From positions 248,001-312,000 of the forward strand of contig NZ_CP054141.1 of NCBI RefSeq assembly GCF_013284035.1: a DNA stretch of 64,000 bases. Direction: 5' to 3'. Position 1 is the first letter of the stretch. Each line of letters opens with the position of its first letter. This DNA is from Flavobacterium sp. M31R6 (GTDB lineage: Bacteria > Bacteroidota > Bacteroidia > Flavobacteriales > Flavobacteriaceae). Made by a program: the position numbers and the translations under genes. The notes below the pieces were generated by a model. The model saw only the letters and a program-made list of their open reading frames with translations. It had not been told where the DNA came from and ran no database searches. Positions 8,736-39,163 of this stretch are shown piece after piece.

Positions 8736-8835
8736 GCCCTAGCCCTGATGGAAACGGCATCCTTTTTATGGGGTGATTTTTCTTCACCTCATAAAAAGAT
8801 ATAGTGTACAGCAGGAAATAGCTCCTAATAATTCG
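8736..8835 (+). repeat. Dispersed palindromic repeat, copy 1
   Basis: The element starts with the core GCCCTAGCCCTGATGGAAAC. A hairpin follows (arms TTTTTATGGGGTGA and TCACCTCATAAAAA, with one mismatch), and it ends with an AAGATATAGTG-TACAGCAGGAAATAGCTCCT tail. The same leading core and tail recur at 35501-35604, with diverged relatives at 21712-21790 and on the opposite strand at 56052-56175. The hairpin sequence itself differs between copies. Confidence 0.75.
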
Positions 8836-21637: not shown

Positions 21638-21711
21638 AAAAAAGTGAAAATCTGCTGAATCTGCATGCTGTTTTTTTTAAAATTTCCCCCTTAACTTAAT
21701 GATATTGTCCT

Positions 21712-21790
21712 TTAGCCCCGATAGCAGTGGAAATCCTTATAAGCCGGGGTTCGGCTTATAAGATTGCAACGAATAGCGGGACCAATGCCT
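21712..21790 (+). repeat. Dispersed palindromic repeat, copy 2
   Basis: Starts TTAGCCCCGATAGCAGTGGA and ends AACGAATAGCGGGA. The central hairpin has perfect 10-bp arms CTTATAAGCC (21736-21745) and GGCTTATAAG (21753-21762). The end cores resemble those of the copies at 8736, 35501 and 56052. Confidence 0.7.
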
Positions 21791-35730: not shown

Positions 35731-36339
35731 ATGGCTTTTGAATTACCACAATTACCTTATGCGTATGACGCATTAGAACCTCATATTGATGCTCGTACAA
35801 TGGAAATTCACCATTCAAAGCATCACAATGCTTATACGACAAATTTGAATGCAGCTATCGCTGGAACTGATTTGGAAGGAAAAACAATTGAGAACATCTT
35901 AATTAACCTAGATAAAACGAATGCTGCGGTTCGCAATAATGGTGGTGGATTTTACAATCACAACTTGTTCTGGACTGTTATGTCTCCAAATGGAGGTGGA
36001 TTACCAACTGGTGAATTGCTAGAAGCTATTGAAAGTTCTTTTGGGACTTTTGAAGAATTTAAAGCAAAATTTGCTAAAGCCGGAGCTACACAATTTGGTT
36101 CTGGATGGGCTTGGTTATGTGTACAAAAAGGTGGGAAACTTGACATTTGCGGAACTCCAAATCAAGACAATCCATTGATGCCGGAAGTAGGTTGTGGTGG
36201 AACTCCAATTTTAGGAATGGATGTTTGGGAACATGCTTATTACTTACATTACCAAAACAGAAGACCAGATTATATTGAAGCTTTCTTCAATGTGATTAAC
36301 TGGACAGAAGTATCTAGACGTTTTGCTTTAGAAAAATAA
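35731..36339 (+). CDS. sodA: Superoxide dismutase (Mn/Fe)
   Basis: Dismutates superoxide to peroxide and oxygen in the cytoplasm. Metal ligands are visible: His in [11 protein letters not shown] (about 27), His in NHNLFWTVM (about 76), and Asp and His in [16 protein letters not shown] (about 164 and 168), the family signature. The 202 residues are typical. A TAATTTTG box (35688-35695) lies 35 bp before the ATG, and a strong terminator follows at 36364-36404. Confidence 0.96.
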
Positions 36340-36363: not shown

Positions 36364-36404
36364 ATAGACGAATAGACTGAAAAGTTTATTCGTCTATTTT
36401 TTTT
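36364..36404 (+). terminator. Terminator of sodA
   Basis: ATAGACGAATA (36364-36374) pairs perfectly with TATTCGTCTAT (36387-36397), followed by T8. Confidence 0.9.
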
Positions 36405-36469
36405 GATCTATACGTTTATCATTTTTCTATTTCGCAACTACTATTTTGTTTTTGGGACTTTATTCCAAT

Positions 36470-36554
36470 AAAAAAGGCGAAATTTTACTTTCGCCCTTTT
36501 TGCCCCAAATCTACCATAAACTTAACCTACTAAAAATTATGGTACTCAAATATA
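36470..36554 (-). ncRNA. Candidate small RNA, tandem unit 1
   Basis: Read on the minus strand: a TATATTTG box (36554-36547), then a stem TACCATAA/TTATGGTA (36544-36537 with 36519-36512), a linker containing GATTTGGGGCAAAA, and a terminator stem GGGCGAAA/TTTCGCC ending in a T6 tract at 36470. The predicted transcript is about 70-75 nt. This unit has C-G where units 2-4 have T-A in the terminator stem, a compensatory change that keeps the pairing. Unit period is 187 bp to the next copy. Confidence 0.6.
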
Positions 36555-36658
36555 CTTTGAACTTAACTAGTATAAAATTATTTTCGATGAAAACCCTAAA
36601 TATTCGATAAATTACTAATTAATTGATTTTCAGTATTTTAAATTGATTTTATTCCAAT

Positions 36659-36742
36659 AAAAAAGGTGAAATTTTACTTTCACCCTTTTTGCCCCAAATC
36701 TACCATAAACTTAACCTACTAAAATTATGGTACTCAAATGTA
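36659..36742 (-). ncRNA. Candidate small RNA, tandem unit 2
   Basis: Minus-strand -7 box TACATTTG (36742-36735), the same 5' stem and linker as unit 1, and terminator stem GGGTGAAA/TTTCACC with T6. The loop of the 5' hairpin is one base shorter than in unit 1. The next unit begins about 224 bp further on. Confidence 0.6.
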
Positions 36743-36881
36743 CGTCGATAATCACTTTATTGAAAATATTTTCGATGAATGCCACAAATAAACGATTATT
36801 AGCTAATTTGTTGATTTTCAGAATATTTAACTTGTTATTTTACTCTTAATTTATCCAAATAAAACTTGATTTTATTCCAAT

Positions 36882-36966
36882 AAAAAAGGTGAAATGTTAC
36901 TTTCACCCTTTTTGCCCCAAATCTACCATAAACTTAACCTACTAAAAATTATGGTAGTCAAATATA
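36882..36966 (-). ncRNA. Candidate small RNA, tandem unit 3
   Basis: Minus-strand -7 box TATATTTG (36966-36959), the same 5' stem and G-rich linker, and terminator stem GGGTGAAA/TTTCACC with T6. The terminator loop has one substitution (GTAACA) shared with unit 4. Confidence 0.6.
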
Positions 36967-37111
36967 CTTTGACATTTGTTACTTTTAAAATATATTCGAT
37001 AAATTCCCTAAATACTCGTTAATTGGATAATTTATTGATTTTCAATATATTTAACTTATTATTTTGGTTTCAATTTATCCGTAAAAAAAGAAACCTTGAC
37101 TTTATTCCAAT

Positions 37112-37195
37112 AAAAAAGGTGAAATGTTACTTTCACCCTTTTTGCCCCAAATCTACCATAAACTTAACCTACTAAAATTATGGTAGGCGAATATA
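37112..37195 (-). ncRNA. Candidate small RNA, tandem unit 4
   Basis: Minus-strand box TATATTCG (37195-37188), one mismatch from consensus, followed by the same 5' stem, linker and terminator. It lies 69 bp beyond the purF stop codon, so purF transcripts could also read into it and end at its terminator. Confidence 0.55.
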
Positions 37196-37264
37196 CTTTG
37201 AGATTTACAACTTTGAAAATAAAGTCGACAAAACACACACAAACCCGTTTATCGGTAAAGTAAA

Positions 37265-39163
37265 TTAATATGCTCTTGCGTCTTTTCCTTCATAAAAATT
37301 CATGAAAGCCCTGTTAACCACACGATTACCTCCTGGAGTAGGATAATCACCAGTAAAATACCAATCCCCTAAATTTTTTGGACAAGCTACATGTAAATCC
37401 TCTACCGTTTGGAAAATAATTTTTACTTCTGCATTAATTTCTGGTGAACTTAGCATTTCGGCTATTTTATCTGAAACCTCTTGAGCAGTAAACGGTTCAT
37501 ATATCGCTGTAACGTAATTTACAACGTCATTATCGTGGTAATTTTCCTGAGCTTTACACTTAGCATAAACATCATCAACGATATGGTATAAATTTCTTTC
37601 TTTCAACAACTCCAATGCAGCTCTAAAAGCAACAAGTCCTTCCAGTTTTGCCATATCAATTCCATAACAATCCGGGAATCTTATTTGTGGTGCAGAGGAT
37701 ACAATAACAATTCTTTTTGGATTCAAACGATCCATCATTTTGATAATACTCATTTTAAGAGTTGTACCTCTTACAATACTGTCATCAATTATTACAAGAT
37801 TGTCGGTTGGCTTTATTACACCATAAGTAACATCATAAACGTGAGCCACTAAATCATCTCTACTACTGTCTTCGGTAATAAAGGTTCTCAATTTAGCGTC
37901 TTTTATAGCCACTTTTTCTGTTCTGATTTTTACAGAAAGTAATTTCTCCAATGAATCAACTGTTAACGTGTCTTTGTTTTCGAGAATGTAATTTTTCTTT
38001 CTTTGATTCAAAAAGTCTTGAGCCGCCTCCACCAATCCGTAGAAGGAAGTTTCGGCAGTATTTGGAATATATGAAAACACAGTATTATCAGTATCATTAT
38101 CAATAGATTCTAATACTGCTGGAAGAATTAATTTTCCTAGATTCTTTCTTTCTTGATAGATTTCGGCATCACTACCTCTTGAAAAATAAATACGCTCAAA
38201 AGAACATGCTTTTTTAACAGTTGGCGTAAGTATCTCCTTCATAGAAATATTTCCGTTTTTCTTAATGATTAACGCACTTCCTGGGTCAATTTCTTGAACA
38301 CTTTCGAATGGTACATTAAAAACAGTTTGAATAACAGGTCGTTCCGATGCAACAACAACAATCTCATCATCTTGGTAATAATAAGCTGGGCGAATTCCTG
38401 CAGGATCTCTAAAGACAAATGCATCTCCATGACCCAATAAACCAGCCATAGCATATCCACCATCAAGATTTTTTGCTGAACGTGAAAGTATTTTTGCAAT
38501 ATCTAAACGATCTGCAATAACTGGTGAAGCTTCTCTTTTAGAATAACCCTCAGCTTTGCAATCTTGGTACAATTGCATCACTTCCTTATCTAAAAAGTGA
38601 CCAATTTTTTCCATTACCGTAACCGTATCAGCCATTTCTTTTGGATGTTGCCCCAATTCAACAAGGTTCTCAAAAAGTTCTTTAACGTTGGTCATGTTAA
38701 AATTACCTGCTAAAATTAAGTTTCTGTGCATCCAATTGCTCTGACGCAAAAATGGGTGAACACTTTCGATACTGTTTTTACCAAAAGTCCCATAACGTAC
38801 GTGTCCTAAAAATAATTCCCCTATATAAGGAATATTCGCTTTTAATTGGGACATATCATCCGCGTATTCTGGATGGGCAACCATTTCTTCGTTTATTCTT
38901 TCATTTATTTGCTTGAAAACATCTTGAATCGGTTGTGCATGATTGGAACGCACACGACTGATGTATCTCTCACCAGGCTCCACATCCATTTTAATACTTG
39001 CAAAACCAGCACCGTCTTGACCTCGATTGTGCTGTTTCTCCATCATTAAGTACATTTTTTGGATACCATAGAAAGCAGTTCCGTACTTTTCTTTATAGAA
39101 TTCAAGGGGTTTTAAAAGTCTAACTAAAGCTATTCCACATTCGTGTTTTAAAGCGTCGCTCAT
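37265..39163 (-). CDS. purF: Amidophosphoribosyltransferase, long form
   Basis: Transfers ammonia from glutamine to PRPP, the first committed step of purine synthesis. The glutaminase nucleophile is Cys9 in KHECGIALVRLL, which is not preceded by a bare Met, so the mature N-terminus would need removal of eight residues or differs from classic PurF. The PRPP loop VIIDDSIVRGTTLK (about 455-468) is intact. At 632 residues it is over 100 longer than E. coli PurF, with extra segments before and after the phosphoribosyltransferase domain. Bacteroidota may carry a shorter PurF as well. It lies next to a PfkB kinase and purN. Confidence 0.88.
   Translation of the reverse strand: MSDALKHECGIALVRLLKPLEFYKEKYGTAFYGIQKMYLMMEKQHNRGQDGAGFASIKMDVEPGERYISRVRSNHAQPIQDVFKQINERINEEMVAHPEYADDMSQLKANIPYIGELFLGHVRYGTFGKNSIESVHPFLRQSNWMHRNLILAGNFNMTNVKELFENLVELGQHPKEMADTVTVMEKIGHFLDKEVMQLYQDCKAEGYSKREASPVIADRLDIAKILSRSAKNLDGGYAMAGLLGHGDAFVFRDPAGIRPAYYYQDDEIVVVASERPVIQTVFNVPFESVQEIDPGSALIIKKNGNISMKEILTPTVKKACSFERIYFSRGSDAEIYQERKNLGKLILPAVLESIDNDTDNTVFSYIPNTAETSFYGLVEAAQDFLNQRKKNYILENKDTLTVDSLEKLLSVKIRTEKVAIKDAKLRTFITEDSSRDDLVAHVYDVTYGVIKPTDNLVIIDDSIVRGTTLKMSIIKMMDRLNPKRIVIVSSAPQIRFPDCYGIDMAKLEGLVAFRAALELLKERNLYHIVDDVYAKCKAQENYHDNDVVNYVTAIYEPFTAQEVSDKIAEMLSSPEINAEVKIIFQTVEDLHVACPKNLGDWYFTGDYPTPGGNRVVNRAFMNFYEGKDARAY

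Follow-up and report, generated by a model that had tools for sequence, protein, structure and literature searches.

Sets of near-identical sibling small RNAs (sRNAs) are familiar from Qrr of Vibrio and the csRNAs of streptococci, which stand under a two-component regulator and combine promoters of their own, common upstream elements, and overlapping targets. In Bacteroidota, to our knowledge, few sRNAs with known targets have been described. The one functional precedent found in the genus Flavobacterium is Rfp18 of F. psychrophilum, for which the available part of the source describes pairing via a third stem-loop with metalloprotease mRNAs, and a deletion that lowered two protease mRNAs, that is, activation (PMC9723704); with Rfp11 at 182564 and Rfp36 at 840245 in the same text, the Rfp numbering seems to follow the chromosome. 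Among Bacteroides RNAs, the accessible portions of the reports describe FopS, a family of 14 in B. thetaiotaomicron that is directed at SusC-like transporters, and GibS, about 145 nt long with a largely unpaired 5' part, which applies two seeds to one target (PMC11697453, PMC7366714).

The locus considered here belongs to a window, that is, the whole 64-kb stretch of DNA that was analyzed, comprising bases 248001-312000 of a 4.46-Mb one-contig genome. Between 36459 and 37201 of this window, the gap between sodA and purF contains four minus-strand units of about 74 nt. The gene that we take to be purF, the name given to it in the sequence-only reading, is 98% identical to purF of Flavobacterium aquariorum. 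The units and their neighbors are as follows.

35731..36339, plus strand: sodA-type superoxide dismutase, the convergent neighbor, outside the RNA; marks the conserved site (synteny)
36469..36544, minus strand: predicted sRNA unit 1, with hairpin 1, linker GAUUUGGGGC, and terminator, the GGCG/CGCC variant (model R2 match G000:C1:284469-284544; fold)
36658..36732, minus strand: predicted sRNA unit 2 (model R2 match G000:C1:284658-284732; fold)
36881..36956, minus strand: predicted sRNA unit 3 (model R2 match G000:C1:284881-284956; fold)
37111..37185, minus strand: predicted sRNA unit 4, the first after purF (model R2 match G000:C1:285111-285185; fold)
37265..39163, minus strand: purF, the same-strand upstream neighbor; marks the conserved site (synteny)

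The sequence-only reading had proposed four tandem units in this gap, and inspection of the sequence, a repeat search, and an alignment all confirm them. Direct-repeat copies lie at 36456, 36644, 36868, and 37098, with spacings of 188, 224, and 230, and the four units align over 99 columns at 96% mean column identity. Each runs in the order promoter box, hairpin, linker, and terminator, and the elements that had been read in them are indeed present: boxes of the TAnnTTTG type (TATATTTG in units 1 and 3, TACATTTG in unit 2, TATATTCG in unit 4), the hairpin TACCATAA/TTATGGTA, a linker with GATTTGGGGC, and a terminator hairpin with a run of six T after it (minus strand). The stem change on both sides is likewise borne out, with GGCG/CGCC in unit 1 versus GGTG/CACC in units 2-4. 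Every unit folds into two hairpins with an unpaired linker between them, at z values of -4.3 to -5.0 (200 dinucleotide shuffles each), and for all four units, none of the 200 shuffles was as low in fold energy as the real sequence. A coding reading of the core (AUG GUA GAU UUG GGG) is ruled out, because the lengths of the terminator loop and of the A run vary between units and break the frame. Four sibling RNA genes, each with a predicted promoter and terminator of its own, are the best and a supported reading of the array, homologs across Flavobacteriaceae keeping both hairpins; as is general for sRNAs, these predicted signals come without a conserved coding frame.

Rfam covariance models, run over the whole window, gave four matches at the gathering threshold, none of them in the array, and Rfam 15 yielded three weak matches within 36400-37300 at E up to 1, of 21.5-23.5 bits against gathering scores of 40-77. 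The same window contains two copies of the Flavo-1 RNA (RF01705), at 8737-8822 and 21710-21787 on the plus strand; the array shows no match to Flavo-1, a short Bacteroidetes RNA family.

Units of the same kind occur downstream of purF, on the purF strand, at all 80 of the loci fetched from named relatives, these being the best 80 of a purF scan, with one to five copies at each; on this comparison, the array is confirmed to be more than a product of chance. Counted by an exact 14-mer across the 80 loci, there is one copy at 8, two at 27, three at 27, four at 17, and five at 1. The carriers include F. johnsoniae strain CI04 (L081). The sodA gene is within the fetched stretch at 76 of the 80, and in 75 of these 76, all the 14-mer matches fall between purF and sodA, the exception (L020) having one further match outside that interval. 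Where relatives have a single copy, the retained unit occupies the position of unit 4, the first after purF. Among 13 stretches from ten genomes of other genera, the units lie between purF and sodA in 8 and with one of the two genes in 3, the remaining 2 being second loci without either. It is from this recurrence that the gap between purF and sodA is taken to be, probably, the ancestral site of the RNA in Flavobacteriaceae. Extra copies of the RNA at a second locus, with neither purF nor sodA nearby, were observed at L287 (G195) and L294 (G064).

With a covariance model built from the four window units, 218 matches turned up in 81 sources, the window itself contributing 4. Model R1 contained a third helix between the linker and the tail that was judged spurious; R2, which omits it, was built from 20 sequences that we picked from 71 distinct ones and covers the transcript part only. 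With R2, the RNA was detected in 32 of 41 Flavobacterium genomes, in 203 of 249 Flavobacteriaceae genomes (193 of 235 genera), and, in a search of the order, in 40 of 296 genomes, all 40 within Flavobacteriaceae; searches over more than 40 genomes used stricter filters, so absences of the RNA may be overcounted. The array thus passed the check that had been proposed for it, namely, a covariance-model search against Flavobacteriaceae: both hairpins are kept in the homologs, one pair of hairpin 1 being broken in many units of other genera, where the UUCAUGG variant breaks one such pair.

The loop of hairpin 1 and the linker barely vary, and the terminator stem covaries. The stretch AGUAGGUUAAGUU(U/C)AUGGUAGAUUUGGGGCAAAAA is unchanged, with few exceptions, in 150 aligned units and in the units of other genera that were read. 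In the terminator stem, 4 of the 13 pairs have changed on both sides and 99.2% of the cells pair, with compensatory changes in 13 cells against 4.5 in shuffles (20 picked sequences of the 71 distinct ones). Over the whole structure, 98% of the cells pair, compared to 40-61% when the structure is slid, and further pair types show no excess (10 versus 10.2 shuffled). Hairpin 1 is too nearly invariant for covariation to count for or against it.

Upstream of each unit, a box of the -7 type and one or two copies of a short word can be recognized.

36547..36554, minus strand: predicted -7 promoter box of unit 1, TATATTTG (sequence, alignment; family-wide position 12 nt upstream of ACC)
36585..36611, minus strand: putative activator site of unit 1, TTTATCG and TTCATCG, 20 bp apart (sequence; repeat conserved in relatives)
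36735..36742, minus strand: predicted -7 promoter box of unit 2, TACATTTG (sequence, alignment, family-wide position)
36770..36779, minus strand: putative activator word of unit 2, TTCATCGAAA, without a partner 20 bp upstream (sequence)
36959..36966, minus strand: predicted -7 promoter box of unit 3, TATATTTG (sequence, alignment, family-wide position)
36990..37003, minus strand: putative activator word of unit 3, TTTATCGAATATAT, without a partner 20 bp upstream (sequence)
37188..37195, minus strand: predicted -7 promoter box of unit 4, TATATTCG (sequence, alignment, family-wide position)
37220..37234, minus strand: putative activator word of unit 4, GTTTTGTCGACTTTA, without a partner 20 bp upstream (sequence)

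A loosened box pattern, TAnnTT(T)G, has its start 12 nt ahead of ACC in 188 of the 205 distinct upstream sequences from Flavobacterium, and at the same position in 43 of 56 from loci L116-L145 without L118, a set that comes from other genera throughout, L116 excepted. In F. psychrophilum, the available part of the source places the -7 box at -12 to -5 (PMC9723704), which would put +1 at or next to the A of ACCATAA; for unit 1, this position gives about 36542-36543, in agreement with the 5' end near 36542 that had been predicted. Farther upstream, the word TT[TC][AG]TC[TCG] is found in 164 of the 205 Flavobacterium sequences with its start 49 nt ahead of ACC, and in 132 with its start 69 nt ahead; pairs exactly 20 bp apart occur in 119, versus at most 1 in shuffles. 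The near word is there in all four of the host's own units, the far word in unit 1 alone. The sequence-only reading had put a TCGAAAATA-like word near -33, which turned out to be too close: in relatives, the word (T[TC][AG]TC) stands about 48 nt before ACC, often with a second copy 20 bp further upstream, and in all four of the host's own units, it starts at 47, the second copy, at 67, being confined to unit 1. The spacing of these direct repeats by two helical turns suggests a dimeric activator, such as a response regulator.

What the RNA might act upon emerged without a prior target hypothesis. When unit 1 and its upstream part served as a blastn query against the host genome, the matches were the four units and a single off-array one, the only such match at E <= 0.001 (E 2.9e-4), which is antisense and ends 8 nt before an ATG. 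The gene that follows encodes a 166-aa protein with a CAP domain (PF00188) and an N-terminus that, read by eye, is lipoprotein-like; a second CAP gene, 15 kb away and 72% identical, also has a complementary site. Both sites are about 35 nt long, with RNAduplex energies of -47.2 and -47.5 kcal/mol against -20.6+-3.7 and -22.9+-3.8 kcal/mol for shuffled controls, and when 61 leaders of mechanical ORFs (>= 120 aa, from the window and the CAP region) were scored, the two CAP leaders reached -42.6 and -40.6, the next best being -21.5. By themselves, the two leaders fold weakly (-7.0 and -7.8 kcal/mol over 108 nt). The pattern GCCCCN{0,4}TCTAC has 15 matches in the host genome (control 5), namely, 4 in the array, 2 in the CAP leaders, and 9 that look like chance. 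The possibility that the off-array match is a degraded copy of the RNA was ruled out, because the antisense site recurs before the ATG of homologous genes, including those of other genera.

CAP homologs were sought in 41 Flavobacterium genomes, and of the 43 places found, the 30 with a locus were read. In 20 of these 30 leaders, a site beats all 200 shuffles and ends 0-13 nt before the most upstream in-frame ATG; its usual form is GCCCCACAAUCUACUUUAAACUUAAACUACU, in which a base at a constant place is bulged or mismatched. The other ten leaders, all from RNA-bearing genomes in which second CAP genes were read in part, have no such site. The site in other genera is shorter and bipartite, typically CCAAATCT separated by a short gap from ACCTACTT or a similar block ahead of the ATG, and its blocks are complementary to the linker and the loop of the RNA; both blocks stay complementary as their spacing shifts from about 11 to about 4-6 nt. 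There, CCAAATC is found within 45 nt of the ATG in 20 of 28 CAP leaders (shuffled mean 0.1, maximum 2), and both blocks are present in 15 of the 28. Plain local alignment did better than shuffles in just 5 of 29 leaders, a set that also holds L249, from another Flavobacterium, which is absent from the 28 used for the duplexes and motifs. None of eight CAP leaders from RNA-less genomes has CCAAATC or GCCCC, the two motifs looked for, within 60 nt; these leaders come from three of the six genomes with CAP only (G043, G087, and G278, with G135, G159, and G221 left out). The median duplex z is -6.4 for Flavobacterium CAP leaders (n=30), -2.9 for those of other genera (n=28), of which 14 do not reach z < -3, and +0.3 for those of RNA-less genomes (n=8).

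The RNA and the CAP lipoprotein also occur together. In the 41 Flavobacterium genomes, 29 have both, 3 the RNA only, none CAP only, and 9 neither, and in the 249 Flavobacteriaceae genomes, the corresponding numbers are 168, 35, 6, and 40 (Fisher values of 6e-7 and 3e-19, respectively, which ignore shared descent). The nine Flavobacterium genomes with neither are G016, G018, G020, G022, G024, G026, G027, G033, and G035. A leader profile, R3, which matched 213 of the 249 genomes, mostly re-finds the RNA on the other strand and is not usable as a count of targets. Regulation of CAP cannot be the whole function of the RNA, judging from the site-less leaders (10 of 30) and from the RNA-bearing family genomes without a detectable CAP homolog (35 of 203). 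A second tandem copy or remnant of the target site was noticed further upstream in the same leader at L102 (G013), L100 (G034), and L360 (G101). Another element, TCGATTTTAACATTT, lies about 75-87 nt before the CAP start codon in 22 of 28 upstream regions from other genera (L250-L277) and is probably a promoter or an operator.

Two further targets appear probable, namely, a membrane protein of about 40 aa in other genera and, in the host, an operon for an adhesin with SprB repeats. In 14 genomes of other genera, the pattern CCAAATCTN{1,9}ACCTN{0,8}ATG has 28 matches, two of them overlapping (control 12): 7 in CAP leaders, 3 in leaders of the ~40-aa protein, and 18 others. This conserved protein (MKNxKRxxLLxALxFFASKVL; L299, L301, L323, L356-L371) has a leader complementary to the sRNA, of the type CCAAATCTATTTAACCTACTAATC-ATG, and, in the two loci with an ORF listing, is encoded close to what we take to be serS and a gene for a TPR protein. 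A search of 40 genomes at E <= 0.05 detected it in 17, two matches having internal stops, and in none of the 11 Flavobacterium genomes among the 40; the duplex z of its leaders has a median of -2.1 (n=16) and is below -3 in 4, a value not reached in the other 12. In the host genome, the minus-strand gene starting at 2684296 encodes a secreted protein; the genes that follow encode a protein of 2972 aa, which combines SprB repeats with VWA and with a type IX secretion-signal domain, and a PorP/SprF protein. Upstream of this operon (G000:C1:2684296-2684803, minus; L278/L279) are four hairpins, 93-114 bp apart, whose loops display CCCAAATC, the complement of the linker, followed in three cases by AACCTAC. 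A related arrangement exists in G030, which its CAP gene (83%) marks as a close relative; six hairpins of the CCCAAATC type, four with ACCTAC in reach, lie beside that gene. The pattern CCCAAATCN{5,35}ACCTAC has 44 matches in 10 Flavobacterium genomes (control 7); outside the arrays, clustered sites are confined to the host (3, in the adhesin leader) and G030 (4). The hairpin cluster upstream of the adhesin operon may be a multi-site target or a sponge.

We consider it quite probable that the array consists of redundant genes for one trans-acting base-pairing sRNA that represses the translation of surface proteins. As with sRNAs in general, its complementarity to mRNAs encoded elsewhere is conserved and tied to the presence of the RNA, with exceptions. 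Transcription of the units, an activator, and repression as the direction of the effect are what we infer from sequence, in the following form. Each copy would be transcribed from a TAnnTTTG box of the sigma-A type, beginning at the A of ACCAUAA or next to it, and end at its own terminator; a DNA-binding activator, at best guess a response regulator, would read the upstream direct repeat, the two words 20 bp apart in most Flavobacterium units. Two parts of the RNA that are unpaired and nearly invariant, namely, the hairpin 1 loop (AGUAGGUUAAG) and the linker (AGAUUUGGGGC), would then pair with the 5' leader of the mRNAs for CAP-domain lipoproteins. The Flavobacterium duplex would also take in the 3' arm of hairpin 1, which would have to open, with about 35 nt paired and a constantly placed bulge or mismatch; pairing in other genera would involve mainly the loop and the linker. 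Because it ends 0-13 nt before the AUG, the duplex is expected to mask the start site and so to prevent initiation, in a phylum without Shine-Dalgarno pairing. Our confidence is slightly reduced by the ten site-less leaders from RNA-bearing genomes and by the three units of the host that lack the second word.

The same RNA with the same targets could instead activate, by protecting the leader or by preventing an inhibitory structure, and the decrease of two protease mRNAs upon deletion of Rfp18 in F. psychrophilum, in the available part of that report (PMC9723704), lends this some plausibility. Nevertheless, activation seems unlikely to us: the pairing ends within the expected ribosome footprint, the weakly folded CAP leaders of the host present little structure to open, and the expected covering of the start codon region argues for repression, the outcome that the accessible texts report for FopS and, where pairing is at the start codon, for two mRNAs bound by GibS (PMC11697453, PMC7366714).

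It is considerably harder to explain the shared sequence as the DNA operator of one regulator, lying in opposite orientations in the CAP leaders and in the array, with the RNA incidental. The letters are identical in the leaders and in the array, and orientation need not matter to a DNA-binding protein, but the conserved stretch of the array is inside a predicted transcript with a covarying terminator, and the shift in block spacing with complementarity kept fits pairing by a folded RNA better. Moreover, the repeat upstream of the units is a different sequence, and its 20/21-bp pair occurs in 1 of 28 CAP upstream regions of other genera; we regard an operator as very improbable. Least credible of all, to the point of being nearly dismissible, is the notion that mobile or palindromic repeats (REP/MITE-like), and not regulatory RNA genes, make up the array. 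Tandem, near-identical units in variable copy number would be expected of such repeats; their location between purF and sodA, however, is fixed in Flavobacterium and in 8 of the 13 stretches from other genera, no match was found in the phage and plasmid collections searched, and every unit has a promoter box and a terminator.

Returning to repression by a base-pairing sRNA, one can conceive of a circuit common to the family, in which a regulator of the two-component type would control a redundant tandem set of ultraconserved sRNAs that, by bipartite pairing of loop and linker at start codons, would switch surface proteins, namely, CAP, the ~40-aa protein, and, in some species, an SprB-type adhesin operon with hairpin sites capable of acting as a sponge. 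We offer this wider scheme tentatively and are more doubtful than confident of it. An RNA found at the same locus in much of Flavobacteriaceae, with a conserved complementary site at start codons, would provide a first handle on the uncharacterized CAP lipoprotein family, as well as a tool for studying how sRNAs act on ribosomes that, according to the available part of the source, ignore Shine-Dalgarno sequences (PMC9976891).

No report of this RNA was found in the open-licence literature; subscription journals and supplements, where it might figure as an unnamed transcript, lie outside that scope. What appears to be new here is an RNA complementary to the leaders of CAP-domain lipoproteins, the complementarity ending near the AUG. 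Compared by description only, and with the source on Rfp18 available in part, the units appear to differ from that RNA, which pairs via a third stem-loop, in that they have two hairpins and are complementary via loop 1, the 3' arm, and the linker; but a read-through transcript of two units would carry four hairpins. FopS and GibS, like the array, are multicopy, belong to the same phylum, and bind near the mRNA start codon, as far as the accessible texts describe them (PMC11697453, PMC7366714); they are reported there from Bacteroidaceae and are set apart from the array by descriptions only. Given the start-codon complementarity in 20 Flavobacterium leaders, the array RNA would be like them in its manner of working, a likeness that does not bear on descent. 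With Qrr and the csRNAs, it shares several near-identical sRNAs, predicted promoters for each, common upstream elements, and, as predicted, overlapping targets; unlike in those systems, the copies are in tandem at one locus and the activator is putative. The complementarity to the CAP leaders is longer than is usual for sRNAs of the Qrr and csRNA type. The array, then, likely represents a new family of a known kind, that of sibling base-pairing sRNAs, distinguished by wide conservation and unusually long target sites.
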